Shown here: in pieces, positions 4,068 to 25,667 of the stretch
Layout of the letters: the number at the start of each line of letters is the position of its first letter
How positions within the stretch are numbered: position 1 is the stretch's first letter
Source: Candidatus Methanoperedens sp.
GTDB lineage: Archaea; Halobacteriota; Methanosarcinia; Methanosarcinales; Methanoperedenaceae
Length of the DNA: 63,391 nucleotides
Assembly (NCBI GenBank): GCA_028717345.1
Contig: JAQUNZ010000004.1
Location: 1-63,391 of the forward strand
Direction: 5' to 3'
Position numbers and translations under genes: made by a program
The notes under the pieces: model-generated
Seen by the model: only the letters and a program-made list of their open reading frames with translations
Databases searched by the model: none
Told to the model about the DNA's origin: nothing

Positions 4068-7000
4068 TCATTTCATCTCATATATATTTAACCTGCCACT
4101 CTCAAATTTAGCACTAAATTCATGGATCAAATTACCTTCTTTTGTCATGATTATTTTGTTACTTTCTGTATTAAGTTTCATCGAAATAGAGTTAGTTCCA
4201 GAAGAAACTGTTATGATCTTAAATCCATCTGATTTTTCAATTATTGCATTAGCTGCCCAGTTGATCCCCAGCTTCTTATTCAGATATTCTAATAATCTTT
4301 CATTGTCCTTTCCCGGTATATTATCCCAGCAGAACAATGCCTTCTTTTGTTTTCTCTTTATTACAAACAGGTAAATCCCGGAAATTACCAGGAGCCCGAT
4401 CACTAAATAGAGTATCCAGTTCAGGCTTACTGGTTTGGGTGTTAATTCTTTTGGCTTCTTTTCTTCAGGTTTCTCGGTAGCTGAAACTGCGGGTGTAGCT
4501 TTAACCTCAACTTCATGTTTTAACCCAGTGACCGTGAAATGCGAGAAACCATTTGTCCTGGCTTCAATATATGTATGATCGCTGTCTTTTCTCAATTCTT
4601 TTGTTTCAAGCTGCGTCCAGGCATCCTTATTCCATCTCTGGATATTCACATCGCTGCTCTCAAATCCATTCGATACTATCCACTTGTTCTCTACTTTACA
4701 TCTGATAAGAGCTTCTTTTATCCCTTTTGAATTTGCCCAGACGTTGAAATTTGTATATATCTTTCCTGAAGGTGTTACTTTCACGATTCTCGACAAACCT
4801 TTCAATTCCTCGACTCTGATAACTATTTCAGTTTCATTCTCCGAACCTGTTACGATAATTTCGTAAGCGCATTGTATCGGGGAAAAATCATAAGTTGTAG
4901 ATTTGCCTGCATGAAGATCGCCATCTTCACTCCGGGCTCTTGCAATATTCTCAAGGGGTTCGGATGTTGTTACGCCTCCGCCTCCACTGCTACCCCCGCC
5001 TCCACCGCCGCCCTGTTGATCTGGCTTGCTGATCACACGGATAATGTCGCTGCCTTCGAATTTTGTTCCATCGTTGAGACTTCCTTTCACTGTGAAAGTC
5101 ACATTCTCGCCGGCTGTCACATTAACAAGGTCTTCCCTGTTGAATTTGGCAATGAAAGTTTTATTATCAGCAATATTCCATCCGATTATATGTGCACCTT
5201 CACATGTGATCGAACTTCCATTGATGTCTGAAACATTATATCCCGAAGGGAGATTAATAAATGCTGTGAACACGCCTTTGCTGGCAAGGTTCAGTGTTTC
5301 AGGTTCTATCCTGACTGTTATCAGGATTATTGGCACTTTTGCAGTTGTTATTATCAGCTCTGATGAATTTTCACCCCAGTTGTTATATGAATCATTTGCC
5401 CTCACTGAATACCGATATGTTGTATTGGCAATTAGACCACTATCATTCCAGTAATGATTTTGAGTATATCCAAGACTTATAGAGTTCCTGAACACCTGGT
5501 AATAGCTCGCTTCATTAATAGCGTCCCAGCTCAGATTTACTGTTGTTTGTGTGGGTGTATCATTCCTCAAAGTCACTTTGCCTGGTGGAGTCGTATCAAA
5601 TATGGACATATTTGCTGATGTGTTGCTTGCTCCGTTGATAGTAACTACAAGATATCCGGTATTGAATCCGGTCTTATTGAAGCTGAAATTATAAGAGCCA
5701 TCAGGCAGACCGCTTATCGAATAATAACCTGAGTCATTTGTTGTGTTTTTATAGCTGCCATTTTTCACAGGTACTCCTGCTAATCCTGAACCATGGTTAT
5801 CGAATACATAACCGCTGATTGTGTAGGTTGGAATAGTTGGAATTCCTGTTACTGTTATTGTTTCATTGTCTATTCCGCCGTAGCTGTCACTTGCATTGAA
5901 TGTCCACAGGTATGTTCCAATATCGCTTTCACCTGGTGTCCATGTGTAAATACCTGTTCCAGGATTGAGTGTTCCTTTTGCATCAGTACGGTATGTGATG
6001 GTATCTAAATCAGCATCGATCGCTGAGATAGTGAATGTCAGAGGATCACCTGCCGTGACTGTTCTGTTCCCGATATATTCCAGGACAGGATCGTTGTTCG
6101 TTACCTGTGTGTTCATGGATGCTGCGGTCAGGCTCAGATTACCTGTGCCTGAATTGTTGTAAGCATATACTGTGATGTTGCTCCAGCCGTGTGGTCCAAC
6201 GCTATTGTTCCTGAATGTTATCGTGTCATTTGTCCAGCTATTATTATGGCTCACGTTGTAGCTATCTGTGATTACGCCTGTGCCTGGTTCCCACGAGTAA
6301 TTGATCCAGAAGTTGCCCTGAGTCTTTTTCAGATTTATTGGAGATGGGGGTATAAATTCTGATGGAACTGATGAAGGTTTAACTGTTATTATTACTGTGG
6401 CTATGTTCGAATCTGCTTTTCCATCACTTGCATTGAAGGTGAACCTGTCTGTGCCGTTAAAGCTGCTAGACGGAGTATATGTCAGATTTGGCATTAATCC
6501 TCCAACGGTCCCATTCATTGGAGAATTAACAAGGTTGAAAGTCAAATTATCATTATCAGGGTCTGATGCAGTAAGGTTGACAAATACCGATGTATTCTCA
6601 TCTGTTGTTATTGACATATTATATGCAACAGGCGGATGATTGACCTTTTCTGCTGTCGTGAACTCCCATGTAAAGGATTCCAGCAGATGAATCTTGTATA
6701 TATCCACTGCAGCGTCGGTAATTGTGATATTGTATGTGGTATTATATTCAAGAGATTCAGGAATGAAAGTCAGACTATTGTTCGCCCAGGTAAAATTGCC
6801 TTTTGTCGGCGGGACTATGATGAAAGCTTTTTCCACAGAACTCTCATTCATCTGTTTGTTGAATGTGACATTGATCAAAGAATCCACTGAAATAGCTGTG
6901 CCTTCTGGTGAATGATAAATCACTTTCGGAATTACCGTCTGGGGCTCGACATTCAATACGGTTATATTGATTTCCTGGGAATCGGTCAACTCTCCGTCAC

Positions 7001-10000
7001 CTACTGTCACGATCACTGAATAATTACCTGAATCGTTGAAATCTGTCTGCCATGTGAAATTGTTACCGTTCTTTGTGAATCTTGTATCATTTATGAACAC
7101 GGTCAAGTTGTTATCGTCATTTGTCACATTGTTCTCATTGTCTGGATCGGTCACATTTGCCATTATTGTTATAAGGTCAGATTCATTGACAATGATATCA
7201 GGTATGAATGCCAGAACCGGCGGCCTGTTGACATTCAGGACAGATATTTTGATTGTTTCATTGGTCGCAGAGTTATTATTAGCTACAGAAAATTTAACAG
7301 TATAATTCCCAGAGTCATTAAAGCTCGGTGTCCATGCAAATAATCCAGATGATCCGTTAAATGAAACCACACCCGGCAGAACATTTCTTTCGTATCCATA
7401 TAATAATGGATTGCCTTCAAGGTCGGTACCATTGAGCTGAATGACAAGCGTTTCGTTCTCTTTTATAGTCCTGTTTCCAATAGGATCCAATACAGGCACC
7501 CCTGGAAGCGCAACGATCACCGATATATTCCTCGATACCTTAAACAATCCATTTGAAACAATCACTGTTATATTATATCTGCCCGGAAAGATCGTATCTC
7601 CCACTGAAACATTCCTGTATCCTGAATATGGGTCGCCGGATACGTTAAACTGGTCTGAGATAAACGTATATGTAATGTTTCCTGCTTTTATGAATTCTTC
7701 ATACGGGATCACATTTATTTTGAAAGTGTCATGATCGTATGCAAATCCATCGAAAACACTTACATTTACCTCGCTTATTCCTGTCTGGTTCGGTACAGGT
7801 ATACAGGATAACATGTACCTGCCTGAAATCTGGCAGTTGACAAGCCCCGGATTGGTCTGGTTCGCGACAGCATATTCCATGTCCGCGATATTCTGTTCGC
7901 TATCGGATGTATAATCAAGCAGGTTGATCGTTATCGATGGCCCGTTCTCAAACACCATCTGGTCTGGTATTCCTGTTATGTTGGGCGGCGTATTGAACAG
8001 GATCAGGGTGAAATTATAAGAATCTATTATTTCGTTTCCGTTCCGATTTACGAGGGTGTTATTATTTTCATCAACAGCTCTAAACAGTACCCTGAATAAT
8101 CCTTCAGGATGGCTGGATGTCGATGTATTCCATTCAAATATCCTGTTCAGGTCGATCTGGTCTTTCGATCCGGGAAGGATTTTTATCATTGTCTCATTAG
8201 TATATTCATCCTGCCATGTGCCGTTATTGTACTGTATCTGCATTATAAATCTTACACTCGTTTCTGAGAACTCATTGTTCTTAAGTTTTGATCCTGTACC
8301 GTCTTCGACAAAGACATTCACACATTGAATATTGCTGTCCGACACTCCATCGCTGGCTTTCAGGCATATATTGGAAATTCCCGGGACGATACCATTAACA
8401 GTCAGGTTTTTTGATGTTATGCCTGCGGATGCGGTTCCTGTGCTGCTCTGGCTGACCAGGGAATATGATAAGGCATCGTTCTCAAGGTCAAAGCCGAAGT
8501 ATCCGGTATCGATGCTTGAAGTCTCACCCGGCTCAATGCTGATATCCGGGATGTTGCGAAGCATTGGAGCCCGGTTCGGGAAAATATGTCTATTCTCAGA
8601 AGTAGATACTGTTTCAAATCCGTCTGTGCAGCTTACCTGTGTTGTGATGTTTTCCGAAAGGTTGCCTCTTAATGTCGCCGCAGCACGACCATTAATTACT
8701 GTTAAATCTTTCTTCGTTCCTCCTGCCGTCAGTTCACATTTTATTGCCTGGTTATCGGGGTCAGAAACCTTTACCGATACATCAAATGCATGTTCTCCGA
8801 GATGATCCCTGTATTCCTGTTCTGAAATATTCGGTCTGGAATTCACCAACACCGTAGTATCTTTTATGCCATTTGAAGAATCGTTATATCTCAGATGATT
8901 GATGCCAGGTCTATCGAACAGTACCTGGCCGTTATTTATAATTATATCTGGTGCGCAGACTCCTGCATTATCCACGCAATATTTTGTCGAACCATTGATG
9001 CTCACCTTTGAACCAGGAACCAGTATTTCGCCCTGATAATCATCATATATTGTATCCTCAGGCTCGATACCGAATACAACATCGATATTCTGGAGAGTGG
9101 TCTGCTCATTACCAACATCATCCTTGCAGCTTACGTAAGCCCTCGTGAGATTTGTTATCCTGTCCCTTGATGGGTCGTCTTTCCTTATGTTTCCCAGATT
9201 GCAGTTCGCAGATCCGTTTGATGCTGTACACTCTTTTTCAAGGAATGAGTAACTCCTGTCCTTATGGAAGCGGTTCACCGGGTCTTTCCCTATCCTGCAA
9301 CTTGATCCCGGTTCGACCTCTATTGAAACTATCGTCTTGAAATCGTTCTGCGTATCCACCATGTTATACCTGTCAGAAGCCAGAGAATATATTTTAGTAA
9401 CAGGCGGTGTGGAATCTGTTGTATAGTTGCCTTTTATCGGGCCGTCGATCGACCCTCTATTATCAACTACGAATGCGAACCATTCATGCAATATATCATC
9501 CTTTTCCGTATTGAACGAACATGCGGGATTCAAAAGTCCCGTCGAACTGCAATATGTCTTTGGAGCGCCGCCTGTGCAACCTCCGGCGCCAGCCTTATTT
9601 CCCTTGCAGACATACAAGGTCATCAGATCGCCATCAGGATCAAATGCCTGTGCCTGGATCGTTACCCTGTCGCCGCCTTTCATCCTGTCCACATTATCAA
9701 AAGCATTTACTAGCACGGGATTATTATTGGGGGCAAGTTTCGACAGGTTGGAAAGTCCCGGCTGGGTTAACCTGACCCTCTGCGTATAGAAATAAATGTC
9801 CTTATCTGTTTTAACATTCAGGTACAGGGAATCGAAAATATCAAAGCTCCTGTTTTCCTTTGCTTCTTTTCCAGAATCATCAACAGCATCAAGATGCAAA
9901 CCGTATCTTCCCCGTTTTGTATTATTATAGGTTGCAGAATAAAGATTGCCCGAACCTGATAAATTCAGGGCTGCATCTGTATTATCTGGCACTGTTAGAT

Positions 10001-13000
10001 TTAATGTTATGTTTTTCAGATTTCCGTCTTCGTCGAGTATTTCAGCATTTATGGTAACGTTCTCATTATAGCCCTGAAGCTCTTGAGAATACAGATATTT
10101 TATCTCTGGATTTGCGTTAACGTATATCTTTCTTACGATCTGGTTATTGAATTCGCTCGTCTCAATGATATCGTCATTGGCATCAGGGAATACAACGAAT
10201 TCATACATTCCGCCTGTTAATTTGCTCGTGTTCCAGGATACGTTCCATATATCGGTCGAAAAGGGATGCATAGTGATAGTTTCACGGTTGAATTCGGTTA
10301 TCTTATCCGTATCCACATTTCTGGCAAATACCGTGAGATTGAAATCCCGGGCGAATAATTCACCGGCGTTCCTCAGGGTGAAATTAAGCTTTACTATTTC
10401 GCCCTTCTCAACCCTAAATACACATTCACCAAGTGTCTGGTTGGAGCAGTCATACATGGACTGGTTCTCAAACGTGACGTTTCCCTGCGACATGATAAAC
10501 ATGCTTGAATAATTCAGGTACATGCTGTCAAGATCGGTTGACCGTACTGGAACGAAGTGATCAAGCGTTAAGTCGGCATCGATATTGAAATCTGTTGATT
10601 TCAGGGTTATCAGGTTGCTTTCACTCTTAGTGAATTCGTTCTTTAGGGTATCGCCTGCGACTTCAAGTCCATTCACCCACATCTTTTCAACGCCTGTCTT
10701 TGATATCCTGATGCCCTGGACAGTGGAATCCACCCACAGGTGTTTCCTGAAATATTTCGCCCGTTCATTCCCTGCCCCGACCTCCACAACGCCCCACTGG
10801 GAATCGTCAAGATAGTTGTTGCTTGCCTGCCCATCATTGAAATTAGAGCCTCTCAGCCAGTTCTTATCTGAAAGCTTTTCGTTCCAGACGCTTGATAACT
10901 GGAGTCTTGTCTCATTGCTAACCGTGTTCGGAATATTGAGAGGTACTTCAAGTTTCTTTATCTCGAATGGACGGACCGTAAGCGTCTGTGTTGCGAGCGG
11001 CTTCTCGTTCTGGTTCTTGAAATCAACCGCATAAAGATCCATTGTGTAATCAAGGGTCTTGTTGTATTTGTTCTCGATCCGAATCCTTGCTGTTACTTTC
11101 TCGCCCGGGCGTACAAAGAATGGTTCTCTTCCCTGCAAATATTGCTGTTCCCTGACACCGAATACTGCAAAATACACTTCTTCTTCCGGTTCAATGACTG
11201 TACCGCCAGTTTTCACAAGTCCTGAATATATCCTGCTTTCAGTGTCTGGTATGGCGCCGTTGATCGATAGCAAATTAAGTTGTCCCTGCTTCAGACCCGA
11301 TGATAGGGACATGGATGACCATCCCGGATAGCCTGAGCCCTGGAATTCACCATTCAGGTATGCATCGGTCGTACCTGTCCTGTCGCCCAGTATCATCTCT
11401 GATCTTGTAGCATTGGTCGGTGCAAAGTAGCGCTTCCTGTATTTGCTGCTTTCAGTTGTCGGGAGAGTGTCGCCCCAGTGATAATCATTCGTCCCATCAG
11501 CGATAAGCTCAGGCATTGAGATCTCCCGGTTCCTGTTCCAGAGCTTGTCCGGGAACTCAAATACCCTCTCCACCTGTACCATCAGTTTTGAATTAAGCGG
11601 GACGTCGCCTGGTATCAAGACGATATAAGTTAGATTAATCTTTGACTCGGGCGGGACTGGCCCTGGTTTTGTGTCAGTCATTAGTTGTATCTTCTTATTC
11701 TGCGGAGTGATCAACTGCATTGTTACTGCATCGACAGTTGCAGGATCATCATCGTTATTAGTGACCGTTATGTTTACCTTTTCCTCATACTGGCGGCGCA
11801 GTAAACCATGATTGCCAATATCCGTGACATTCATTTCAAGCGCTTCGACAACGGGCTTTACTGTTGCATTTGATCTGTTGTCCTGTGCAACCATCTCATA
11901 GAACATCATGTCAAATTGCCTGTCCGGGCCATAAGAAAAGAGATCTAATTCATTGTTATTCCCTGTGGAAAGTTCATAAAAGTTGGGTGTCCAGCCATAT
12001 ATTATCTCATTACATGCGGTGTTCAGGCTTGATTTCAGTTTCCCGTTCACCCATGCTGTTACTCCTGATGGCGGTTCAGTATAATATGGGGTGCATATCT
12101 GGCGCAAATATTCTTTTTGTTCGGATTTTATCAAATTCGTGGGTACCCACACAAGTTTCCTCAGGAATGAGGTCTCTGCGCCGCAGTTTTCGCAGCCCAG
12201 TCCGTAATCAAAGCCCTGGAATCCCCACGGGAGCAGGTCTGTGAATGACGAGACATTCGAATTGTTATACAAATTTGCCTGGGCAATATTTTCATAGAAA
12301 ATATTGCTTCCCTGGGGCCAAATATCCTTTATGTTTGACCTGTAGAATTCATTATCGACGAGAGGATGCTTTTCTATAGCCTTTACAAGAAGTGCTGCTC
12401 CAGTGGGCGCACCGTCTGGAACATAAACTTTATATTTCTTATGCGTTACCTGTTCTGGAGGCAGGTTAAAACCTGATGTATCCGTGAAAAGGTCTATTAT
12501 CCTTGTTTCATCGGTCGCTGTGCCGTTCCATGAAGAGCCTGAGTTATCATATAATTCCAGTGCGATGCGATCTATAGTATAAGGTCTCCGGTTATTATTT
12601 TTCACGTTAAGGTCAATATCCTCGATATAACCGGTCTTCAGATTCAGGTCGGTTTTGTTGGATATCATCAGCACGATTGGAGGTTCGTCCGGCTTCACGA
12701 TATCATAACTTGTTTTTGAGAGGTGTATTAGCCGCCTTATTTCTCCTGTTCCCGCGATGGTATTGACGTATCCTTCGGTGAGGTTATACATCGCACACCA
12801 GTTCTGTATGCAATCATACTGGCGTGACATTGTCCCATTGAAAAAGACCCTGTATGAACCCTTGAATTCGTATGTAGTGCCAGCCTCAACGAACAGGTCA
12901 AAAGTATTTCCGCCAAGCTCAGGTCTGTTTATGAAAACAGGATCAGGTTTTTCTCCTCTTATCCAGCCTCCGTTCACATCCAGTTCATAGAAATATGCCG

Positions 13001-16000: not shown

Positions 16001-19000
16001 TTACTTTCGCATTATTAATTGCAATATCGTTCAGATTCTTTATGGTAGCCACTGCCGTTATTTGCATACCAGGAACTGGAGGATATGAATATCCCTGGAA
16101 AATAAGGTTCGTGGGAGTAAAATCAGGAGCGATTACAATATCATCTACATAATCCCTGTCTGTTTTTATCCTGCCGGGGTTGATATTCTTTGTGTTCGCA
16201 GTGATGTTATTCAGATTTGTCACATCGTCGCTTAAGAGATAATCCGTATTCGGGGTATTGAAAGAACCTTTCATACTGTAATTGACATTTGTGATCGCTG
16301 AAACATTTGTGACTGAATTCGGAATGGATTTATACTTATATTTGAAGCCCTCTCTCAACCTCAACACAGGAAGATTATCGAATATGGAGAGGATCTTCGG
16401 AAGTTCAAACGACCTGTCATTCAATACAGCATTTTGATTATAATCGATGTAAGTGATAGTTCTTATCCAGTCATAAGGAACATATTTGTTTTCAATTCTC
16501 AGGACTTTTATGGCTGAGCCTGCTTTATTTGAGAAATTGAGGTAATATTGCACATTGTAGGTGCTGTTATCCCATGGTGTTTCGTATAAATAAACATCAC
16601 CGTAGAATTTATTGGTACAATAATAATCAAGGCATACCACTTCTCCGCCTTTTACAAAGCTTACATCCTCCATCCAGGATTCTGTAAGGTTAAGGTCGAT
16701 CATTTCCCTTGCCCACGGGTTCTGGATATGCGTCGTGGTTTCTATTTCCCTTCTCGGAGGCGAAGGCGACGGGGTCGTTGTTTTCAATATCCTCAGGCTG
16801 TTCATCAGCATCGTTACATTCCCGTTATCGCTTCCCACGATTACATCAATATCATTGTCTGAATCGTAATCGCCTGAGGTTATGCCGTATGATTCAGGAA
16901 CGTTGCCGATTATCAGCGGATTTGCAACAAGACCGCCTTCCCTGCTGAAGAACATCCTGACTTTACCGTCAAAGCTTGTTGAAATCAGGTCAAGTTTGCC
17001 TGAATAATCAATATCTGCGGCTGTAAGTCCATGGGCGAATGTTCCCACGTCAGCGAACAGGAATCCATTGTACCTGTCAATTTCCCATACCATTCTTTCA
17101 ATCTGACCGTCCCCGTCCCCGACCATTACATCCACATGCCCGTCAAGGTCAAAATCACCTGTGGTCAAACCGAAAGGCTGGTTCCTTGTTGTCAATGTCC
17201 TGCTAAATACCATTGACTCGTTCGTGAGAACATTGCCGGTCATGTTGTTCAGGTAAAGATTGACCTGTCCTTTTTTGTTGCTGACCACTATATCGAATTT
17301 ATTGTCATTATTGAAGTCAGAAACCGCAAGACCGTATGCCTGGCCGCCAACATCCAGCAGGATCGTTTTATTTGAGAACGTCCCGTTGCTGTTATTATAG
17401 AATAATACCTTTCCACTTTCTGTCCCGACAATGAGGTCAGGATAATTATCGCCTAACATATCCCCTGAGGTCATACCCCAGGCTGCTTCACCGATATCAT
17501 CTATTAAATACCGGGTGAAGTTCACATTCTTTGTCCTGTTGTTATTTGTATAGAACACTCCGTTGTTCCTGTACAGGATTATCTTTCCTTTATCAGTCCC
17601 CACAACAAAATCAGTCTTATTATCATGATCAAAGTCATTGCTTGCCATACCCCTTATCTTTTCACCCGGAACGGCTGCAAGAGGCTTTTGCGGGAAAATT
17701 ATGAGGTCTGGTATCTGCTCTGCGATGTATTTCTTTGTTTCAAATTGGGAACTCATCACGTTATTTGATCTATCCACCTCTGCAGGAAGATCATTTGTGT
17801 TTGCTTCGGCAAACACCGTCTGCATCCCTGAAAGACCCGCTGTCTGCCAGTTTACAGATACATTCACAGAACCGGAAGCAGGCACATTTGCATCCTTGAA
17901 ATCTATCCTGTCTGAAAGATTCAGAGTATTTTCATAAAAGCTTATTTTCACATTGTTAGCATCAATTGGTTTCAGGTTAACGATTGTCGCCGTTATCGTG
18001 ACGACCTGCCCTTCATATACCGGCGAAGCTGGATTGAATGCAATATTTGTTACGGTAAGGTCGGGTCCGTCTATGAATATTTCTTTAGATGCATAATTAT
18101 TGCTGTAATTTGTTTCGGAATAGTTGGCTGATCTTTCTATCCTGGCGCCTATCGTAACATTGCCGGCAAAGCCCGTTGTATTCCAGTTCAAGATGAGATC
18201 TGGCGAGGATGTAAGATTTGCTTTCCGGGATCCGATAATCCTGTCATTAGCAAGGAAAGTCACATTCGCAAATTCGACTTTCGCTGAACCAAGGTTGATT
18301 ATTCTTGCTGTAATGTTCAAATGTTTTCCTGTGACAGTTGTTAATGGATCAAAAGATATCAGGGAAGCATTGACCATAAGGTCGGGTCCGGTCAGGATGG
18401 TGAGGTTGTATCTGCTTGAGTTCAGATTACCTGCGACATCACGGACAACTATCTCGGCGGGATATATGCCTTCAACTGAAGGTGCAATGACCGAGCCGTG
18501 ATACATGCCATCCTGAGAAAGTGTGAAGGTTAATGTTTTTCCAAATACTGAAGCGCTGACAGCATCGACTGAATAATTATCCGTGGCGTTGACCGCTATT
18601 TCCATCCTGTTATCGGTGTAAAGGTTTGTAAATCCAGCCGAATTGAGAACAGGAAGCTCCGGGTCAACAAGGAACAAAGCTTCAAGATAGCCGGTATTTC
18701 CGGCTTCATCCGCTGCCGTAATATTCAAACTGTATTTTCCTGAATAGTTCAAATCTGATCTGAACTCAAAGCCGCCTTTTAATTTTGAGATCGGGCTCAT
18801 GGTCAGGTTAAAATCAGAAGAGTTGATACTTATCTGGTTTATATTTGTGAACGTTCCTTCAACAACACCTCTTATAACAGGATTCCTTGTCGTCAGGTAA
18901 GCTCCGCCTGTCATGTAATTCTTAATTTCGATAAGAACTCCTTCATTATCTACAACAAAATCATTGGAGAGTTCAGAGACTGTATATGTCCCGTCTGTCG

Positions 19001-22000
19001 CTTCCACTTTTATCCTTGTATAACCGCTCCATCCTGTAGTGTCCCAGAGGTGTGAGTCCGTTCCATTCTGAGTGGAATTTGAGATGAAGACCCATTCTCC
19101 CTGTTTGAAATAATTTGTCCTGTTCTCCAGGTACGACGGCGCCCAGGGTGCAGGCTTCCAGAAATACAGGGTTGAATTGGTGAGTCCCTCGTTATCGTTG
19201 TTCACAGTCCAGTTAATATAATGAGCGCCTTTCCAGCGGGAGGCGGAATTCGGGCTCTGTATGGTTATTATGGGGACGTCATTGATCGGGTCGATGTAGT
19301 CATATCTTATGTTATATACATTGCTGTTACCTCCCCTGTCATAAACTATGAAATTGTATGCAAGCGTTTCTCCCTGGTGGGCTTTGAAATCAAGATCAAA
19401 ACCGTTCAAGACCACTTTGTAAAGATTCCCTGAAACATATACTGCCTGTTTCGTAGAAGAAACATTACCTGCCGAGAAATTCAGGAACACCCTTGCCGGA
19501 TCAATGCCGTAGCCGATATCAGTTGCTTCTACATAGAATGCCGGATTAGATGAATGTTCAGTAAGATTCGCGGGAACAGTATATACTGAAATTATCTGGG
19601 GCGGGTTTATATCATCAAGGAAAGTGAGGTTTGCTTCCAGCGAGTTGTTTGATTCATTTGATTCAATTACATTTCCAGAATAAGTATAGTAATTATAATC
19701 TACAAACGCGCTCACTTTTTGTTTGCCATATACTGCTGTCCATTTCTGGGAAACTATCGTTGAATTTCCTGATACAAGACCTCTGGAAATATACGGGGAT
19801 GGATTGTAGTAATTATCAATGCGTGCGCCGTCCACGAAAAATTGCACTATGAATCCTCTTGAAGTATTTCCCGCCCCGATGTTCTGTATCGTTGCATTGA
19901 ATATGACCTCCCTGCCGTCGGATAATTTTGCTGGCGACCATGATATATTCGAAACGATCAGGTCAGAGAATGGTATAGGATTCAGTGCTGAAACATAATC
20001 ATTATTGTTCTCGTTAGCTTCCTGGATGACATTGTCAGGGTCAGCTCTTGCAATGAACGTATGGTTTCCGGGTGTGGCGTAATACCATGTTCCGGAAATA
20101 TTTGCAGTACTATTTACCGGAAGTTCCTGGTTCACATAACCTGTGGCGACGCTTACCCCGTCAATATAGAATCTGGCATAGAGATTAGTAGCCGAGATAT
20201 TTCCCGGACCAATGTTCATTATAGTGGCATTAAATATTATGGATTCGCCATCAGATGCATTGAATTGAGAAATGTCCGTTGTCACTCCGTTTCCTGTCGC
20301 AGAGACATTTGTAACTATAAAGTCAGGATAAGAAATCGATGTCAGGTTTTTTGTTAAGGAGTTGTTCGACTCGTTGGTTTCCTGTATTCTGTTCCCATAG
20401 TAATTTGATGTATCAACGCTTACGGTAACTGTATGATTTCCACCCTGGCCAGTCCATGTATGGGTTACATTTACACGATCTCCTGGATGCATTATGGAAC
20501 CATAATATGCCCCATAATAATCATAATTGATATATTGATTATCCACATAGAACATTGTATAAAATCCATTCGGAGAATATGCATTTCCAGTTCCTATATT
20601 CCTGAGGATAGCATATATGGTTACAGTTTGCCCGGCTGTATAATTCAAAGGTGACCAGGTTATATCTTCAACTACGAGGTCAGGATATGAAATCGCGGGT
20701 AAATTAATAGTCATACTGTTATTGGTTTCATTTGCCTCATCTACAATGCCTCCGGCATCGTAGTAATAACAAGAGTACCAATAACAATTATATTCACGTT
20801 TCATATCAGCCTTTACACTGATAGTATGATTGCCTGAGGTAGCTGTCCATGTTTTTGTTACATATCCAGTTCCGTTTACTGGCAAGTTCAAGGTCTTGTA
20901 AACTGAAGGATCAAGACCATTCCCATCAACATAGAACGCAAACGGGATATTCCAGGACGACAGACTGCCTGGACCATAGTTCTTAACGGTTGCATTAATT
21001 GTTATTAGATCGCCGGCTTCGATACTGCCATTCCTGGTTGAAGTAATAGAAATGTTGTCAATAGCCAGATCAGGCATTGGGAGATTGTTGCTTCTCTGGT
21101 AATAATCATTGTTCGATTCATTTGATTCGATAATATTCAATCTGTAAATGTCATTTCTATCTGCGACAGCTTTGAAATAGAAGTCGCCTGTCTGCGCAGT
21201 ACTCCATGTGACTGTGGCATATCCCTCCCCGCCAGGCGGGAGATCCATTTTTTGATTAATAGAGTTTATAATTGTAGTATTCTTATAATAGAAATCTACC
21301 CATACCGATCCATTCCAGGTGCCATTGCCATTGTTCTTAACCGTTGCATTCAAAACTACTTTGTCTCCCGCTGAGTAGGTATTTGGAGTCCATGTTATAT
21401 CTGTTATTATAAGGTCAGGAAGATCCAGGCGGGGCAAAACCATTGCTTTATCGTTGTTTGTTTCATTGACTTCTGGAATATTATTATAATAGTCAGTCCT
21501 TGCACTAACTGTATGGTTCCCTCCCTGGGCAACCCAGGTCTGCGTTACGGAAACGCTGTCTCCTGAAGATATTACGTTAGGATAGTATACCCCATTATAA
21601 TTGAGGTATGAACCGTCAACATAAAACATAGTGTGGAAATATGACGTCGTGTTTCTTGATCCTGCATTCCTGATATTCGCAGAGAAGGTAACTGTCTGCC
21701 CCGGTGTGTAATTTAGCGGAGACCATGTTATGCTGTCTATAACAAGATCGGGTCCTGGAGTAAACGGCAGGTTAATGCTTAGATCATTATTGGTTTCATT
21801 CGTTTCTTTGACATAGTTGTTATAGTTAACATACGCCTTTACTATATGGTTTCCCGGAAGGGCTGTCCAGGCGCCTGAGGTTATTGTGAAGTTTGAACCG
21901 GAAGCGATTGGTCCTCCTGTCCAGAGGGATTCTGGGAGGGATATTCCATCAATGAAAAATCTAACGTTTATGTTCGTATTTGGAGTACTTGATTCCCCAA

Positions 22001-25000
22001 TATTATCGATCTTCGCAGTAAATGTTACTTGATTCCCGGCTGAATAATTAACAGGTGACCAGATTATGTTCTCAACAACAAGGTCAGGGCCGGGAATATA
22101 TGGAAGTGGTACGTTCAAATCATTGTTCGTCTCATTTGACTCAGCGATATTATCGTAATTATCCGCATAAGCTTTTATCGTATGGTTCCCCGGAAGGGCT
22201 GGCGTCCAAACACCTGTAATGTTCTGTGTTGCGCCTGGCGCAATAATACCGTAAAAGCTATTTTGGGAGAGGTAGTTCCCATCTATATAGAATCCGACAT
22301 AAATGTAAGTATTTTGTGTGCTCGCATCCCCTATGTTTTTAACCGTTGCATTGAAATTTACAGTATTCCCTGCTGTGATCGGATCCGGCTGCCATGTGAT
22401 ATTCTGGATTATAAGGTCAGGGGCTTTCGCAGCAGGCAGTGAAATGTTCAATTCATTATTTGTCTCGTTTGATTCAAGGACATTATAGTTACTGTCTGCA
22501 AATGCCTTCACCGAATGCTGACCTGGTGAAGCTGTCCATGCCGGAGATGTGATCGTGATGCTGGTATTTGGAGGAAGAGAGCCAGACCATGATGGATCAT
22601 AAGAGTACCATCCCCAATAGTTCCATTGCCGGAAAGGATTCCATACCCCGTCAATGAAGAATTTTACATATATGGAAGTATATGGTACAGGCGCATCGCC
22701 GATATTCCTTATTGTAGCGTTAAATCTCACAGAGTTTCCAACTGAAAACGGATCCGGCTGCCATTTGATATTTTCAACTACAAGATCTGGCGCAGCGATA
22801 TAAGGCAAAGTCACATTCAGATAATTGTTTGACTCATTCTGCTCAGCCCAGTGATTATTAAAGTCTGCTTTTGCGCTTAATATCCTGCCATTCCCGACCT
22901 TATTAGCATACCATGAGATGGAAACGTTCAGGATCTGTTCTGTTCCAAGCGTTGCGTTTGTAGCGACTTCGTTAATATATTCACCATCAATATAAAATCC
23001 TGTTGAAATAGTACCATTAAAACTTGCGCCTGTATTTTTTACGGTTGCATTGACAGTAACAGGCTCGCTCACATTGAAGCTTGCCGGTTTCCATGTCAGT
23101 TGGGTCACGATGAAATCAGGGTAATTGATTATTGGCAGGCTAAAATTTCTGCATCCGATCACGCCATTATCGTTCCAGCCGTCAGGACGGTCACATGTGT
23201 TATTATCCCCTCTATTTACTGTGCCATATACGTTGAAATCAAGGTAAGAATTTCCGACTACCCGATTACTATTAAGTTCGTTGCTGCCTGAATTGATTAA
23301 CCGTATCCCGTTATTGGAATTGTTGAGCACATTATTGGAAGAAATCCTGTTATTGCCGGACGAAACATAATAAATACCTTCATTGTTGTTTGAAACTGTG
23401 CCGCCTGAAATGGAGTTATTGCCGGATGATGAGAAGTAGATGCCATAATAATTGTTAGAACTGCTGATGTTCAACAAACTTGAATTATATGTATTCCAGA
23501 AATAGGCACCATAATAGTTTTTTGTCAGGATGGCATCACTGAACGTCACATTATTGCATCGTATGCAATAAATCAGACCCGCATTTGAAGAGGCGTCATA
23601 ATATTTGTCAGCTTCATTTTTCAAATAATAAACAGATTTACCATCAACTGTGTTACTTGTATCAATAATGTTATTGAAATAATAATCCGAGGAACCGGTC
23701 AGGTAAAAATTGTATTTGTTGCCACCCATAATATTCTGGCTAAAGTTATTTTCAGTGGAATAACTAATGTAAATGCCAGTGTTAGTATTGCCGTTGAAAT
23801 TATTTACGTTTATATTATTATAGCTTGAAGAATCCACATATAAGCCATAATTATTGTTATTGGCAGCGCTGTTAGTGATCTTATTATTAGATCCGTAAAG
23901 ATAGATACCATAATAATTGTTGTTGCTGGCGTTGATACCCGTGAGATTATTATTCTGGATATTACTTAAATATAATCCGTAATTATTATTATTAGCTATA
24001 ACGCCTGTGAGATTATTATTTTGGGAATAGTAGAGATATAAGCCATAATTATTGTTCTTGTTGGCGTTGATCTCGCTTATAATATTGCTGTTACTTTGAT
24101 AATAGATATACATGCCATATCGGTTATTGCTGGCATTGATGTTCGTAATTTTATTATTGCTTGAATAGTATGTATAAATACCCGCATCATAATTATTGGT
24201 TGCGTTGATGCCTGAAAGTATGTTATTCCCGGAATTGTCAATGTATATGCCTTCATAATTTGTTTTGGCTATAACATTTTTAATGCTATTATTGTTTGAA
24301 TTATATAAGTAGATGCCATAATAATTGTTCGAACTATTAATGTTTAACAAACTCGAATTATATGTGTTCCTGAAATATACACCATAATAATTTTTTGCCA
24401 CGATGGCATCTTTGAATGTAACGTTATTACATCTTATGCAATAAACCAGACCGGCATTTGAAGAGGCGTCATAATAAGTGTCAACTTCATCTTTCAGGTA
24501 ATAAACAGTTTTACCATCTAATGTGTTGCTTTTTTCAATTGTATTATTGTAGTGAGCATCCTGGTAACCTGTCAGGTAAAAATTGTACCTGTTGCCAGAC
24601 ATTTTGTTTTCGCTGAAGTTATTTTCGGTAGAATAACTAACGTAAACGCCAGTGTTTGTATTGCCTCTGAAATTATTTCCAGTTATATTATTATAGTTAG
24701 CAGAATAAAAATACAAGCCATAATTATTGTTATCAGTAGTGCTTTGATTGATCTTATTATTAGAACCATACAGATAGATACCATAATAACTGTTATTGCT
24801 GGCGTTGATATCGTTAAAGTTATTATTCTGGATATTGTATAAATATAATCCGTAATAATTATTATTAGCTACGGCGCTCGTGATGTTATTATTCCGTGAA
24901 TAGGAGAAATATAAACCATAATCACTGTTGCCGCTGGCGTTAATCTCTCTAAGATTATTGCTATTACTTTGAGAATCGATATACATGCCGTAACGATTAT

Positions 25001-25667
25001 TACTTGTATCGATGTTAGTAATTGTATTATTGTTTGAATAATATGTATATATACCCGAATTATAATTATCGGTTGCGGTGATATTTGATATAGTGTTTCT
25101 ATTTGAATTCTGAAGGTACATTCCGTCAGAATTCTTTTTGGCTACAACATTATTAAAGATATTATTGTTTGAATTATATGAGTATAAGCCATAATTATTG
25201 TTATTACTCGCGTTTATGCTTGTGATCGTGTTGTTGTTTGAATTAGATAAGTATATACCAAAATAATTATTAACACCTGTATTTATGCCTGTGATCGTGT
25301 TATTATTTGAGGTTATTTTTATCCCAATGTAGTATCCGGCATTTGTGACAGTGAAATTATCAAACGTAATGCCATCCACACTCAGAATAACAGCATCATT
25401 GACCCCGCTTCCGTTCACGATCGGGTTCCCGTTGCCCGTATCCACTCCGTGAAGGAAAAGCTGCTTATTCACATTTATGTTCTCAGAATAAGTTCCGCTC
25501 TGGACAAGGATCGTATCACCTGTAGTTGCGTTATTTACAGCCTCCTGTATCGTCGTATAATTCGCCCCGCCGCCTGGATATACGGTATATGTTGTGGCGC
25601 TTGCAGTTCCTGAAAATGTCACAAGAAGCAGTATTGCAATTAAAAATATCCGTTTTCTATCTATCAT
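4068..25667 (-). CDS. giant modular cell-surface protein (~7,199 aa) with NosD, CARDB, FG-GAP and PGF-pre-PGF domains and a C-terminal anchor
   Basis: One uninterrupted frame of 21.6 kb. The start is ATG 25667: a GGGGTG lies 8 nt upstream and it begins 2 nt past the previous gene's stop. The ORF could extend six codons to 25685, but that overlaps the upstream gene. Approximate order: signal peptide (ending SGTASA); Asn-rich NosD beta-helix, residues 30-830; ten tandem CARDB modules (PDLVVENITW...NATVKNIG), 850-2020; Ig-like domains; two CARDB, 2430-2640; six FG-GAP/VCBS repeats (DFDHDNKTDFVVG), 2660-2975; more CARDB, 3190-3800; five FG-GAP repeats (DLDGDGDPDLIVG), 3820-4120; jelly-roll-like and CARDB modules to about 5200; cadherin/He_PIG-type Ig domains; carboxypeptidase-regulatory-like, about 6620; FN3, about 6700; a Gly/Ser linker, about 6890; PGF-pre-PGF, 6905-7060; a membrane helix near 7095; KRKQKK; a cytoplasmic tail of about 95 residues. 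N-X-S/T sequons are abundant. A role in adhesion, S-layer or matrix is inferred. Confidence 0.9.
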   Translation of the reverse strand: MIDRKRIFLIAILLLVTFSGTASATTYTVYPGGGANYTTIQEAVNNATTGDTILVQSGTYSENINVNKQLFLHGVDTGNGNPIVNGSGVNDAVILSVDGITFDNFTVTNAGYYIGIKITSNNNTITGINTGVNNYFGIYLSNSNNNTITSINASNNNNYGLYSYNSNNNIFNNVVAKKNSDGMYLQNSNRNTISNITATDNYNSGIYTYYSNNNTITNIDTSNNRYGMYIDSQSNSNNLREINASGNSDYGLYFSYSRNNNITSAVANNNYYGLYLYNIQNNNFNDINASNNSYYGIYLYGSNNKINQSTTDNNNYGLYFYSANYNNITGNNFRGNTNTGVYVSYSTENNFSENKMSGNRYNFYLTGYQDAHYNNTIEKSNTLDGKTVYYLKDEVDTYYDASSNAGLVYCIRCNNVTFKDAIVAKNYYGVYFRNTYNSSLLNINSSNNYYGIYLYNSNNNSIKNVIAKTNYEGIYIDNSGNNILSGINATNNYDAGIYTYYSSNNKITNINASNNRYGMYIYYQSNSNIISEINANKNNNYGLYLYYSQNNNLTGVIANNNNYGLYLSNIQNNNLTGINASNNNYYGIYLYGSNNKITNSAANNNNYGLYVDSSSYNNINVNNFNGNTNTGIYISYSTENNFSQNIMGGNKYNFYLTGSSDYYFNNIIDTSNTVDGKSVYYLKNEADKYYDASSNAGLIYCIRCNNVTFSDAILTKNYYGAYFWNTYNSSLLNISSSNNYYGIYFSSSGNNSISGGTVSNNNEGIYYVSSGNNRISSNNVLNNSNNGIRLINSGSNELNSNRVVGNSYLDFNVYGTVNRGDNNTCDRPDGWNDNGVIGCRNFSLPIINYPDFIVTQLTWKPASFNVSEPVTVNATVKNTGASFNGTISTGFYIDGEYINEVATNATLGTEQILNVSISWYANKVGNGRILSAKADFNNHWAEQNESNNYLNVTLPYIAAPDLVVENIKWQPDPFSVGNSVRFNATIRNIGDAPVPYTSIYVKFFIDGVWNPFRQWNYWGWYSYDPSWSGSLPPNTSITITSPAWTASPGQHSVKAFADSNYNVLESNETNNELNISLPAAKAPDLIIQNITWQPDPITAGNTVNFNATVKNIGDASTQNTYIYVGFYIDGNYLSQNSFYGIIAPGATQNITGVWTPALPGNHTIKAYADNYDNIAESNETNNDLNVPLPYIPGPDLVVENIIWSPVNYSAGNQVTFTAKIDNIGESSTPNTNINVRFFIDGISLPESLWTGGPIASGSNFTITSGAWTALPGNHIVKAYVNYNNYVKETNETNNDLSINLPFTPGPDLVIDSITWSPLNYTPGQTVTFSANIRNAGSRNTTSYFHTMFYVDGSYLNYNGVYYPNVISSGDSVSVTQTWVAQGGNHTVSARTDYYNNIPEVNETNNDKAMVLPRLDLPDLIITDITWTPNTYSAGDKVVLNATVKNNGNGTWNGSVWVDFYYKNTTIINSINQKMDLPPGGEGYATVTWSTAQTGDFYFKAVADRNDIYRLNIIESNESNNDYYQRSNNLPMPDLAIDNISITSTRNGSIEAGDLITINATVKNYGPGSLSSWNIPFAFYVDGNGLDPSVYKTLNLPVNGTGYVTKTWTATSGNHTISVKADMKREYNCYWYSCYYYDAGGIVDEANETNNSMTINLPAISYPDLVVEDITWSPLNYTAGQTVTIYAILRNIGTGNAYSPNGFYTMFYVDNQYINYDYYGAYYGSIMHPGDRVNVTHTWTGQGGNHTVTVSVDTSNYYGNRIQETNESNNSLTKNLTSISYPDFIVTNVSATGNGVTTDISQFNASDGESIIFNATIMNIGPGNISATNLYARFYIDGVSVATGYVNQELPVNSTANISGTWYYATPGNHTFIARADPDNVIQEANENNNDYVSALNPIPFSDLIVSNISWSPAKLSDGREVIFNATIQNIGAGNTSRGFIVQFFVDGARIDNYYNPSPYISRGLVSGNSTIVSQKWTAVYGKQKVSAFVDYNYYTYSGNVIESNESNNSLEANLTFLDDINPPQIISVYTVPANLTEHSSNPAFYVEATDIGYGIDPARVFLNFSAGNVSSTKQAVYVSGNLYKVVLNGFDLDFKAHQGETLAYNFIVYDRGGNSNVYNIRYDYIDPINDVPIITIQSPNSASRWKGAHYINWTVNNDNEGLTNSTLYFWKPAPWAPSYLENRTNYFKQGEWVFISNSTQNGTDSHLWDTTGWSGYTRIKVEATDGTYTVSELSNDFVVDNEGVLIEIKNYMTGGAYLTTRNPVIRGVVEGTFTNINQISINSSDFNLTMSPISKLKGGFEFRSDLNYSGKYSLNITAADEAGNTGYLEALFLVDPELPVLNSAGFTNLYTDNRMEIAVNATDNYSVDAVSASVFGKTLTFTLSQDGMYHGSVIAPSVEGIYPAEIVVRDVAGNLNSSRYNLTILTGPDLMVNASLISFDPLTTVTGKHLNITARIINLGSAKVEFANVTFLANDRIIGSRKANLTSSPDLILNWNTTGFAGNVTIGARIERSANYSETNYSNNYASKEIFIDGPDLTVTNIAFNPASPVYEGQVVTITATIVNLKPIDANNVKISFYENTLNLSDRIDFKDANVPASGSVNVSVNWQTAGLSGMQTVFAEANTNDLPAEVDRSNNVMSSQFETKKYIAEQIPDLIIFPQKPLAAVPGEKIRGMASNDFDHDNKTDFVVGTDKGKIILYRNNGVFYTNNNRTKNVNFTRYLIDDIGEAAWGMTSGDMLGDNYPDLIVGTESGKVLFYNNSNGTFSNKTILLDVGGQAYGLAVSDFNNDNKFDIVVSNKKGQVNLYLNNMTGNVLTNESMVFSRTLTTRNQPFGLTTGDFDLDGHVDVMVGDGDGQIERMVWEIDRYNGFLFADVGTFAHGLTAADIDYSGKLDLISTSFDGKVRMFFSREGGLVANPLIIGNVPESYGITSGDYDSDNDIDVIVGSDNGNVTMLMNSLRILKTTTPSPSPPRREIETTTHIQNPWAREMIDLNLTESWMEDVSFVKGGEVVCLDYYCTNKFYGDVYLYETPWDNSTYNVQYYLNFSNKAGSAIKVLRIENKYVPYDWIRTITYIDYNQNAVLNDRSFELPKILSIFDNLPVLRLREGFKYKYKSIPNSVTNVSAITNVNYSMKGSFNTPNTDYLLSDDVTNLNNITANTKNINPGRIKTDRDYVDDIVIAPDFTPTNLIFQGYSYPPVPGMQITAVATIKNLNDIAINNAKVMLLIDNIPVKFGCPANCVNYTTFSIGVKGTTTLSTSTNLPMSVGTSVNVTVVVNPFRDDIETNYDNNNITNSISTLPPADLRNDGVYFSNGSVFKNVFVEGEPIIIYTNISNIGTNKSFSEDVFFIGAPALLYYPPCCGNITPVNRIINCNAGDPDYDADLCDGFIERIFSPYQLTSPGNIEPGASVSTNISNVLGDFKLRSHGVYNFTTIVSNAGSLDQNHANDANFSQLTVLPGREDIQFYYPFCDPNSLDKIYLSNPGGNNITFNYGEINIGGNDVSNYDSVVYLDNNDSVILGRIVNDSLANHTSENRHVTIDWSSVPPGDHKVNFYLDYGKNASESTAKAVSSEGLIIKSGKQGVSGNGISVSIQNITADTFRLVITNKKEIVEQTAFDLQERTEIQTITYDRKSDNTDIKTVGDIVDVIRNGGNSSGTFIPTGLLSVEINGAAPTAKPIVQTLNLIIPGSLTNERSDFNNQHSTIFRWKELVLKDIKFNPIFPSPRDIVTISSTIKNEGDIRTGAFNVTMYINGQPVSTKTVSLLAHDTQPISFLYTIPQSDSNSYNVRIEADPENKIMKEDKRDNNLTASIPVSAPFELNVFSREHNINFLSAYRNDGRNNFTASSFGLDNISMEYDTAPALVDYDSDGDYDLITGSLDGRLVRYENTGTEISSRFRETNWSNVDWKPEEVPNVRIGTKYYNTVNISSLDVGARSAPEFVDLDNDSLMDMVIGDTHGRLRSFKSAIVEKNSVKKRAWVEYDFNLSKIDQVLKAVPRFADLDGDGDPDLIVGNQFGKLVGYENIGNSTNPDWQHKDFNLSSIDAGANAAPAIADIDLDGDYDLVVGNRTGISIYENTGNRTDPAWHKLDTSLSIPGQTDYRPTLADLDGDGYPDLIYGSNNFTRMKLRKGYYEPVNVQIINYAKNQIDIGRIGLSVIDAASGNRITDLMLDGPFNKYAGYDNFLNGNRIGSQGVLEKEYDLNIPEDLPENTVLGVRASKQENVNPAYFYELDVNGGWIRGEKPDPVFINRPELGGNTFDLFVEAGTTYEFKGSYRVFFNGTMSRQYDCIQNWCAMYNLTEGYVNTIAGTGEIRRLIHLSKTSYDIVKPDEPPIVLMISNKTDLNLKTGYIEDIDLNVKNNNRRPYTIDRIALELYDNSGSSWNGTATDETRIIDLFTDTSGFNLPPEQVTHKKYKVYVPDGAPTGAALLVKAIEKHPLVDNEFYRSNIKDIWPQGSNIFYENIAQANLYNNSNVSSFTDLLPWGFQGFDYGLGCENCGAETSFLRKLVWVPTNLIKSEQKEYLRQICTPYYTEPPSGVTAWVNGKLKSSLNTACNEIIYGWTPNFYELSTGNNNELDLFSYGPDRQFDMMFYEMVAQDNRSNATVKPVVEALEMNVTDIGNHGLLRRQYEEKVNITVTNNDDDPATVDAVTMQLITPQNKKIQLMTDTKPGPVPPESKINLTYIVLIPGDVPLNSKLMVQVERVFEFPDKLWNRNREISMPELIADGTNDYHWGDTLPTTESSKYRKRYFAPTNATRSEMILGDRTGTTDAYLNGEFQGSGYPGWSSMSLSSGLKQGQLNLLSINGAIPDTESRIYSGLVKTGGTVIEPEEEVYFAVFGVREQQYLQGREPFFVRPGEKVTARIRIENKYNKTLDYTMDLYAVDFKNQNEKPLATQTLTVRPFEIKKLEVPLNIPNTVSNETRLQLSSVWNEKLSDKNWLRGSNFNDGQASNNYLDDSQWGVVEVGAGNERAKYFRKHLWVDSTVQGIRISKTGVEKMWVNGLEVAGDTLKNEFTKSESNLITLKSTDFNIDADLTLDHFVPVRSTDLDSMYLNYSSMFIMSQGNVTFENQSMYDCSNQTLGECVFRVEKGEIVKLNFTLRNAGELFARDFNLTVFARNVDTDKITEFNRETITMHPFSTDIWNVSWNTSKLTGGMYEFVVFPDANDDIIETSEFNNQIVRKIYVNANPEIKYLYSQELQGYNENVTINAEILDEDGNLKNITLNLTVPDNTDAALNLSGSGNLYSATYNNTKRGRYGLHLDAVDDSGKEAKENRSFDIFDSLYLNVKTDKDIYFYTQRVRLTQPGLSNLSKLAPNNNPVLVNAFDNVDRMKGGDRVTIQAQAFDPDGDLMTLYVCKGNKAGAGGCTGGAPKTYCSSTGLLNPACSFNTEKDDILHEWFAFVVDNRGSIDGPIKGNYTTDSTPPVTKIYSLASDRYNMVDTQNDFKTIVSIEVEPGSSCRIGKDPVNRFHKDRSYSFLEKECTASNGSANCNLGNIRKDDPSRDRITNLTRAYVSCKDDVGNEQTTLQNIDVVFGIEPEDTIYDDYQGEILVPGSKVSINGSTKYCVDNAGVCAPDIIINNGQVLFDRPGINHLRYNDSSNGIKDTTVLVNSRPNISEQEYRDHLGEHAFDVSVKVSDPDNQAIKCELTAGGTKKDLTVINGRAAATLRGNLSENITTQVSCTDGFETVSTSENRHIFPNRAPMLRNIPDISIEPGETSSIDTGYFGFDLENDALSYSLVSQSSTGTASAGITSKNLTVNGIVPGISNICLKASDGVSDSNIQCVNVFVEDGTGSKLKNNEFSETSVRFIMQIQYNNGTWQDEYTNETMIKILPGSKDQIDLNRIFEWNTSTSSHPEGLFRVLFRAVDENNNTLVNRNGNEIIDSYNFTLILFNTPPNITGIPDQMVFENGPSITINLLDYTSDSEQNIADMEYAVANQTNPGLVNCQISGRYMLSCIPVPNQTGISEVNVSVFDGFAYDHDTFKINVIPYEEFIKAGNITYTFISDQFNVSGDPYSGYRNVSVGDTIFPGRYNITVIVSNGLFKVSRNISVIVALPGVPVLDPIGNRTIKENETLVIQLNGTDLEGNPLLYGYERNVLPGVVSFNGSSGLFAWTPSFNDSGNYTVKFSVANNNSATNETIKISVLNVNRPPVLAFIPDIIVNESDLITIMANVTDPDNENNVTNDDNNLTVFINDTRFTKNGNNFTWQTDFNDSGNYSVIVTVGDGELTDSQEINITVLNVEPQTVIPKVIYHSPEGTAISVDSLINVTFNKQMNESSVEKAFIIVPPTKGNFTWANNSLTFIPESLEYNTTYNITITDAAVDIYKIHLLESFTWEFTTAEKVNHPPVAYNMSITTDENTSVFVNLTASDPDNDNLTFNLVNSPMNGTVGGLMPNLTYTPSSSFNGTDRFTFNASDGKADSNIATVIITVKPSSVPSEFIPPSPINLKKTQGNFWINYSWEPGTGVITDSYNVSHNNSWTNDTITFRNNSVGPHGWSNITVYAYNNSGTGNLSLTAASMNTQVTNNDPVLEYIGNRTVTAGDPLTFTISAIDADLDTITYRTDAKGTLNPGTGIYTWTPGESDIGTYLWTFNASDSYGGIDNETITVTGIPTIPTYTISGYVFDNHGSGLAGVPVKNGSYKNTTNDSGYYSISGLPDGSYNFSFNKTGFNTGYLVVTINGASNTSANMSIFDTTPPGKVTLRNDTPTQTTVNLSWDAINEASYYQVFRNSISLGYTQNHYWNDSGLIANTTYRYSVRANDSYNNWGENSSELIITTAKVPIILITVRIEPETLNLASKGVFTAFINLPSGYNVSDINGSSITCEGAHIIGWNIADNKTFIAKFNREDLVNVTAGENVTFTVKGSLNDGTKFEGSDIIRVISKPDQQGGGGGGGSSGGGGVTTSEPLENIARARSEDGDLHAGKSTTYDFSPIQCAYEIIVTGSENETEIVIRVEELKGLSRIVKVTPSGKIYTNFNVWANSKGIKEALIRCKVENKWIVSNGFESSDVNIQRWNKDAWTQLETKELRKDSDHTYIEARTNGFSHFTVTGLKHEVEVKATPAVSATEKPEEKKPKELTPKPVSLNWILYLVIGLLVISGIYLFVIKRKQKKALFCWDNIPGKDNERLLEYLNKKLGINWAANAIIEKSDGFKIITVSSGTNSISMKLNTESNKIIMTKEGNLIHEFSAKFESGRLNIYEMK
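23453..25200 (-). repeat. tandem duplication of ~870 bp inside the NosD beta-helix region
   Basis: Two successive DNA blocks of about 872 bp are clearly homologous. For example, 24325-24475 and 23453-23603 differ at scattered bases only. Both encode the sequence YNSSLLNI...SSNAGL(V/I)YCIRCNNVTF followed by beta-helix coils. The duplicated unit is about 290 residues, so the helix grew by whole-block duplication on top of the short 20-24-residue coil repeats. Edges are approximate. Confidence 0.75.

Follow-up and report, generated by a model that had tools for sequence, protein, structure and literature searches.

The window analyzed here, a stretch of 63,391 nucleotides from a contig of Candidatus Methanoperedens sp., contains on its minus strand a stop-free frame of 7,205 codons that extends from position 4068 to 25685. 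Across this stretch the plus strand is full of stops, and the frame is far beyond chance because the remaining two minus-strand frames hold 485 and 678 of them. A chimeric assembly join within the gene is unlikely given that the 21.6 kb are free of stops. The first-pass annotation had likewise described an uninterrupted frame of ~7,200 residues; the end that it assigned, 25667, is an internal ATG at residue 7 (MIDRKRIFLIAILLL...), which is probably the true start. Residues 7-25 (25610-25667, minus strand) form a hydrophobic segment that, on the basis of hydropathy, resembles a signal peptide. The neighboring upstream gene (25669-32736, minus strand) encodes, as judged from the list of open reading frames, Pfam and hydropathy, a secreted multi-Ig protein of 2,355 aa. 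The two genes share 17 bp. The neighboring protein has a signal-like segment, lacks a C-terminal transmembrane segment, and closes with a run of cadherin-like domains.

The giant protein was scanned with Pfam in pieces. The region delineated by about residues 46-850 (23136-25550, minus strand) matches NosD/parallel β-helix families (PF05048, PF13229 and TIGR03804), as had been claimed in the first-pass annotation. The main CARDB array follows at about residues 855-2025 (19611-23123, minus strand; PF07705 and motif starts), and additional CARDB modules lie downstream of it. The stretches that pass independently number 6 + 6 + 1 + 1, and thus at least 14 of the "at least fifteen" modules proposed earlier are recovered; for a protein scanned in pieces, a count of fifteen is plausible. 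The first of two FG-GAP blocks (16785-17732, minus strand) contains six calcium-loop repeats, matches PF13517/PF01839, and shows a sequence match of 5e-11 to the propeller protein CRTAC1 (9etn), with a weak match to BBS2. The second block (13302-14228, minus strand) contains five repeats on the basis of Pfam FG-GAP matches and the loop count. Counted directly, there are six calcium loops at residues 2684-2939 and five at residues 3869-4110, in agreement with the eleven repeats listed previously. An AlphaFold run of an FG-GAP block with single-sequence input gave a pLDDT of 38. Pfam also recognized FG-GAP_3/FG-GAP and CarboxypepD_reg domains, together with Big_9, Big_5 and He_PIG and, weakly, Big_13/Cadherin. 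The earlier mention of several Ig types thus stands; for the FN3 domain listed with them, Pfam gave no match at E<=0.01. For the segment encoded by 8070-12560 there were no homologues at E<=1e-15 in 39 relatives, and so the giant is in large part strain-specific. A tail-less orthologue was not found in these 39 relatives.

As predicted from the first reading of the sequence, the C-terminal region contains a PGF-pre-PGF domain (4524-4961, minus strand; TIGR04213, 106.7 bits versus an NCBIfam cut-off of 28) followed by a transmembrane segment, ILYLVIGLLVISGIYLFVI, at residues 7091-7109 (4359-4415, minus strand; hydropathy 2.77). The latter is the one strong hydrophobic segment in the C-terminal region. 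A TIGR04213 match above the cut-off with a membrane segment behind it is what characterizes PGF-pre-PGF surface proteins. The giant shares both domain content and C-terminal anchor with such archaeal proteins carrying CARDB, NosD and FG-GAP modules, but differs from them in its unusual size, its strain-specific middle, and a tail that is very probably transposon-derived. The data support its description as an archaeal surface protein of modular build, anchored in the membrane and containing two FG-GAP blocks. By analogy, the ectodomain presumably serves as an adhesin or matrix protein.

The transmembrane segment is followed by about 96 residues, the last ~88 of which (FCWDNIPGKDNERLLEYL...LNIYEMK) constitute the tail module (residues 7115-7202). 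A cytoplasmic tail had been predicted and is indeed present. FG-GAP repeats and a single membrane segment are also features of integrins and had suggested integrin-like adhesion. In an integrin-like receptor, a folded cytosolic domain behind the membrane, as predicted here, would be a dedicated signalling or anchoring domain coupled to the outer propellers. We regard such a receptor as highly improbable. The tail is not dedicated to adhesion signalling, since RNA polymerase A', CDC48 and helicases also contain the module, which occurs in extracellular positions as well. Members of the family reside in cytosolic enzymes and outside the membrane (L199, L012, L025) with terminal inverted repeats (TIRs) and target-site duplications (TSDs), and the anchored proteins of relatives are mostly without the module. 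Unlike integrins, moreover, the giant has repeat blocks of six and five in one chain and shows no sign of a heterodimer. The tail is, rather, in all probability an in-frame transposable element.

In a six-frame search the module was observed in 24 of 30 relatives, with a maximum of 29 copies per genome. The family has no convincing match in Pfam or NCBIfam. After masking of the module, its hosts fall into 81 unrelated families. The six copies in the genome of the giant itself (G000) are located in the giant, RNA polymerase A', a CDC48-type AAA ATPase, a TraB-family protein, and two unnamed proteins. Elsewhere the hosts include XPD-like and Cas3-like helicases, KAP and STAND NTPases, Baseplate_J, an Eco57I-type methylase, a T2SSF protein, a tubulin-like protein, and S-layer proteins. 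In the S-layer protein L199 the module lies outside the membrane, and in the PGF-pre-PGF proteins L012 and L025 it precedes the transmembrane segment. The named carriers belong mostly to Methanoperedens, ANME-1, ANME-2, Methanosarcina, Methanothrix and Altiarchaeales. Isolated matches also occur in MAGs of bacteria (Brocadia, Bacteroidales and WOR-3; L172, L187 and L205), where they may reflect transfer or binning contamination. There was no match in viral contigs, plasmids and phages.

Gene clusters with many copies each occur in G014, G007 and G017 (L013, L014, L046, L048), several of them with Baseplate_J or phage-tail-like injection proteins. In Methanosarcina sp. UBA11020 (L203), five tandem paralogous genes each have the element in nearly the same place, and so these copies were probably duplicated together with the host gene. 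In Methanosarcinales CSMAG_2052 (L186:6293-11074) the element occupies residues 236-322 of an S-layer/cytochrome c7 fusion that resembles the electron conduits proposed for ANME archaea.

RNA polymerase A' and CDC48 provide both empty and filled sites. In RNA polymerase A' a 98-aa insert lies between ...EKPTTYIE and HKLMPTDIR..., within the Rpb1 domain; the site is filled in 3 of 18 genus members and empty in the remaining 15 and in all 12 genomes of other families. In CDC48 there is one site common to G000, G013 and G007; G006 and G017 have a paralogue with the element several residues beyond that point, and in ANME-2-related CDC48 proteins the element is found at a different place (residues 394-479 of L161, for example). 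CDC48 orthologues from G011, G024 and G028 (L127, L129, L130) have another kind of insertion, coiled-coil-like and about 190 residues long, which follows ...HT(R/Q)GMPIY.W and replaces a short loop; gaps are also seen in G008, G012 and G015, and most relatives lack the insertion. Two other identities for the tail were considered and set aside. A STAND- or effector-associated adaptor, suggested by a protein in which trypsin, STAND and the module are combined, was dropped when the module was found inside RNA polymerase A' and CDC48. A mini-intein was rejected since, by eye, the ends have no splice-type residues and 88 aa is too small.

Upstream and downstream flanks of 118 non-redundant sites were compared across registers, with permuted pairs as the control. 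A single register stood out, with z=15.8 where the permuted pairs peaked at about 3, and the excess of matches was exactly 8 positions wide. Duplications matching at 6 or more of the 8 positions occur at 31 of the 118 sites versus 2.8 expected. Eight sites have perfect duplications, one of them in the genome of the giant (AAAAAATT, G000:C63). In a gene cluster of G014, three copies that are 93-96% identical in DNA sequence are surrounded by unrelated flanks, and two have perfect duplications. The element is bounded by 14-bp TIRs with the consensus sequences GTATTTGTTTAGCT and GTATATGTTTAGCT, which agree as inverted repeats at 13 of 14 positions, and codon choice inside them is skewed, as a constraint at the DNA level predicts. 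Its commonest length is 262 nt (69 of 118 sites). The sum of 262 and 8 is 270, and thus the reading frame is kept. In nine genomes, virtually every copy lies in a long stop-free frame; G017:C51, where the host is broken, is the clear exception. In G007, TIR matches outside the modules were at the control background.

A likely mobilizer was identified in a congener. An intact insertion sequence (IS) of the IS66 family, 1,615 bp in length (G004:C36), has GTATTTGTTTAGCT at both ends and encodes a transposase that scores 242 bits against the NF033517 equivalog, for which the cut-off is 180. Two relatives of this IS were found in G017 and G035; their ends are of the GTATTTGTATAGCT type and their 8-bp duplications are perfect. 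The duplications of the IS66-family elements, namely AAAAAAAC (G004:C36), GCCTTATT and GATTTTTT, match at 8/8 positions each. Over its left 28 bp, the G004 IS agrees with the consensus of the short element at 22 positions. The IS lacks the coding sequence of the module, and the module-bearing element lacks a transposase. An IS66 transposase was not found in the genome of the giant, and those of other subgroups in its relatives are without element-type ends. With TIRs, TSDs, short length, multiple copies, no transposase of its own, and a partner having the same ends, the family has the features of a MITE.

In the giant gene the element spans 262 nt (4080-4341, minus strand). The upstream copy of the duplication, CAAAAGAA (4342-4349, minus strand), and the downstream copy, GAGATGAA (4072-4079, minus strand), were positioned by the register from the 118 sites and agree at 5 of 8 positions, which is expected by chance in ~10% of cases. 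The 5' TIR, GGCATTGTTCTGCT (4328-4341, minus strand), matches 9 of 14 positions of the consensus GTATTTGTTTAGCT, and the 3' TIR, with ATATATATTTAACC as its reverse complement (4080-4093, minus strand), matches 10 of 14 of GTATATGTTTAGCT. This copy is old and decayed. Given these scores, its membership in the family rests on sequence homology; in the family alignment the conserved core of the module is retained. Removal in silico of the element and one duplication yields a protein that terminates in ...YLFVIKRKQKK* (LVISGIYLFVIKRKQKK) or ...KRKEMK*. Many PGF-pre-PGF proteins of relatives stop directly after the transmembrane segment in the same manner. The insertion site corresponds to the last codons of the giant, and as such the element was appended and did not interrupt its host.

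A scheme consistent with these data can be proposed. The native giant would have ended a few residues past the membrane, at about ...YLFVIKRKQKK*. A non-autonomous MITE, 262 bp long, bounded by 14-bp inverted repeats and most likely moved in trans by an IS66-family transposase, would then have inserted in-frame into the last codons and duplicated 8 bp of target, thereby placing an 88-residue α+β domain, presumably translated, on the cytoplasmic side. Copies of the element have repeatedly entered many other, unrelated genes in-frame, in Methanoperedens, ANME-1/2, Methanosarcina/Methanothrix and Altiarchaeales. Out-of-frame or extragenic insertions may have been lost or have decayed past recognition, and in-frame insertions would persist by virtue of a single open frame encoding a self-folding domain that the host tolerates. 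We are confident that the tail of the giant arose in this way, as an IS66-mobilized MITE added in-frame to a membrane-anchored surface protein, with hosts that tolerate the domain. The broader proposal, that the element is itself a self-folding protein domain that spreads as DNA and survives almost only when translated in-frame, even within RNA polymerase and CDC48 of methane-oxidizing archaea, is a reasonably probable one.

The AlphaFold2 model of the module, calculated from a 71-row alignment, is a compact domain of helix plus six strands with a pLDDT of 91.3. Its predicted fold has no match at E<=0.001 in the PDB or among viral models (BFVD), and its sequence matches nothing convincing in the PDB (best E 0.097). 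In 15 of 16 orthologous pairs of inserts dN/dS is 0.12-0.5; in the remaining pair, which has very few synonymous changes, it is 1.05. The values are 0.14 and 0.29 for the inserts in RNA polymerase A' and 0.13 and 0.18 for those in CDC48, as compared with 0.03-0.05 for these conserved hosts themselves. The copies are mostly under purifying selection.

Purifying selection, the nearly invariant in-frame residence, and the NTPases, STAND proteins and injection-system proteins among the many hosts would also suit an ordinary promiscuous domain, used for docking or as an adaptor, that had travelled through gene fusion and recombination under selection for an interaction common to its hosts. The 8-bp duplications in a fixed register and the inverted-repeat ends held in common with an IS66 element are not accounted for by such a history, nor is an insertion within the Rpb1 domain of RNA polymerase A', and a module that resides in opposite compartments is unlikely to have a single partner in common. 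This origin is accordingly considered improbable. Somewhat less so, although still doubtful, is the notion that the element did arrive as a transposon and was then domesticated, such that the domain now performs a cytosolic task for the giant. The retained core and the dN/dS values below 1 for orthologous inserts are in keeping with domestication, but the need to remain folded would yield the same values, and the 39 relatives provided no orthologue of the giant by which selection on its own copy could be measured. In our preferred interpretation the in-frame MITE in the giant is simply tolerated.

The closest known kind of element is the Rickettsia palindromic element (RPE), with equivalents in Wolbachia. 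RPEs are small non-autonomous repeats, each with a single open frame, found in-frame in unrelated, even conserved, protein genes (PMC10969869, PMC2229807). They are 105-146 bp long (about 150 bp according to PMC10969869), with predicted stem-loops and intergenic copies as well; the target duplication is entered as unknown in a table of PMC2229807. In-frame MITEs are already known, with RPE and ERIC among them (PMC2229807, PMC10969869); PMC2229807 also cites one in an archaeon, dated 2005. Like RPEs, the archaeal element resides in-frame in unrelated protein genes. Features that set it apart from RPEs, as they are described, are its length of 262 bp, the globular fold predicted for its 88 aa, the 8-bp TSDs, the identified IS66 partner, and the near-absence of non-coding copies in nine genomes. 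ERIC/RU-type and other ORF-bearing MITEs likewise fuse coding potential to genes, with archaeal precedent, and in the literature consulted are not described as folded domains; the present element encodes a predicted folded domain and is distributed systematically over several archaeal orders. A 2005 study by Suyama reportedly dealt with coding repeats in Methanocaldococcus jannaschii. A search of mostly open-access literature yielded no report of this kind of element in Methanoperedens. A folded-domain element with an identified IS partner provisionally appears to be new.

If this interpretation is correct, the element would be a "protein-domain transposon" that takes the harm out of its own insertions or even makes them beneficial. 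It shows how new globular domains may enter essential proteins in one step, and for such a step not only the empty site and the duplication scar but also the inverted repeats and a probable transposase are known. The question raised by RPEs, namely how selfish DNA is tolerated in proteins and whether it may become useful, can thereby be tested in archaea of the methane cycle. "Conserved domains" and "cytoplasmic tails" of ANME proteins, including those of RNA polymerase A', CDC48, S-layer proteins and the S-layer/cytochrome fusion, may be transposon insertions.

Finally, the genome of G024 contains many lone TIR-like sites, some in short repeats, with no paired element bearing a TSD. On two of its contigs (C12 and C13; L313 and L315) a 342-bp repeat, 92% identical between the two, lies at GTATGTGTTTAGCT-type ends and is possibly a non-coding relative of the element.
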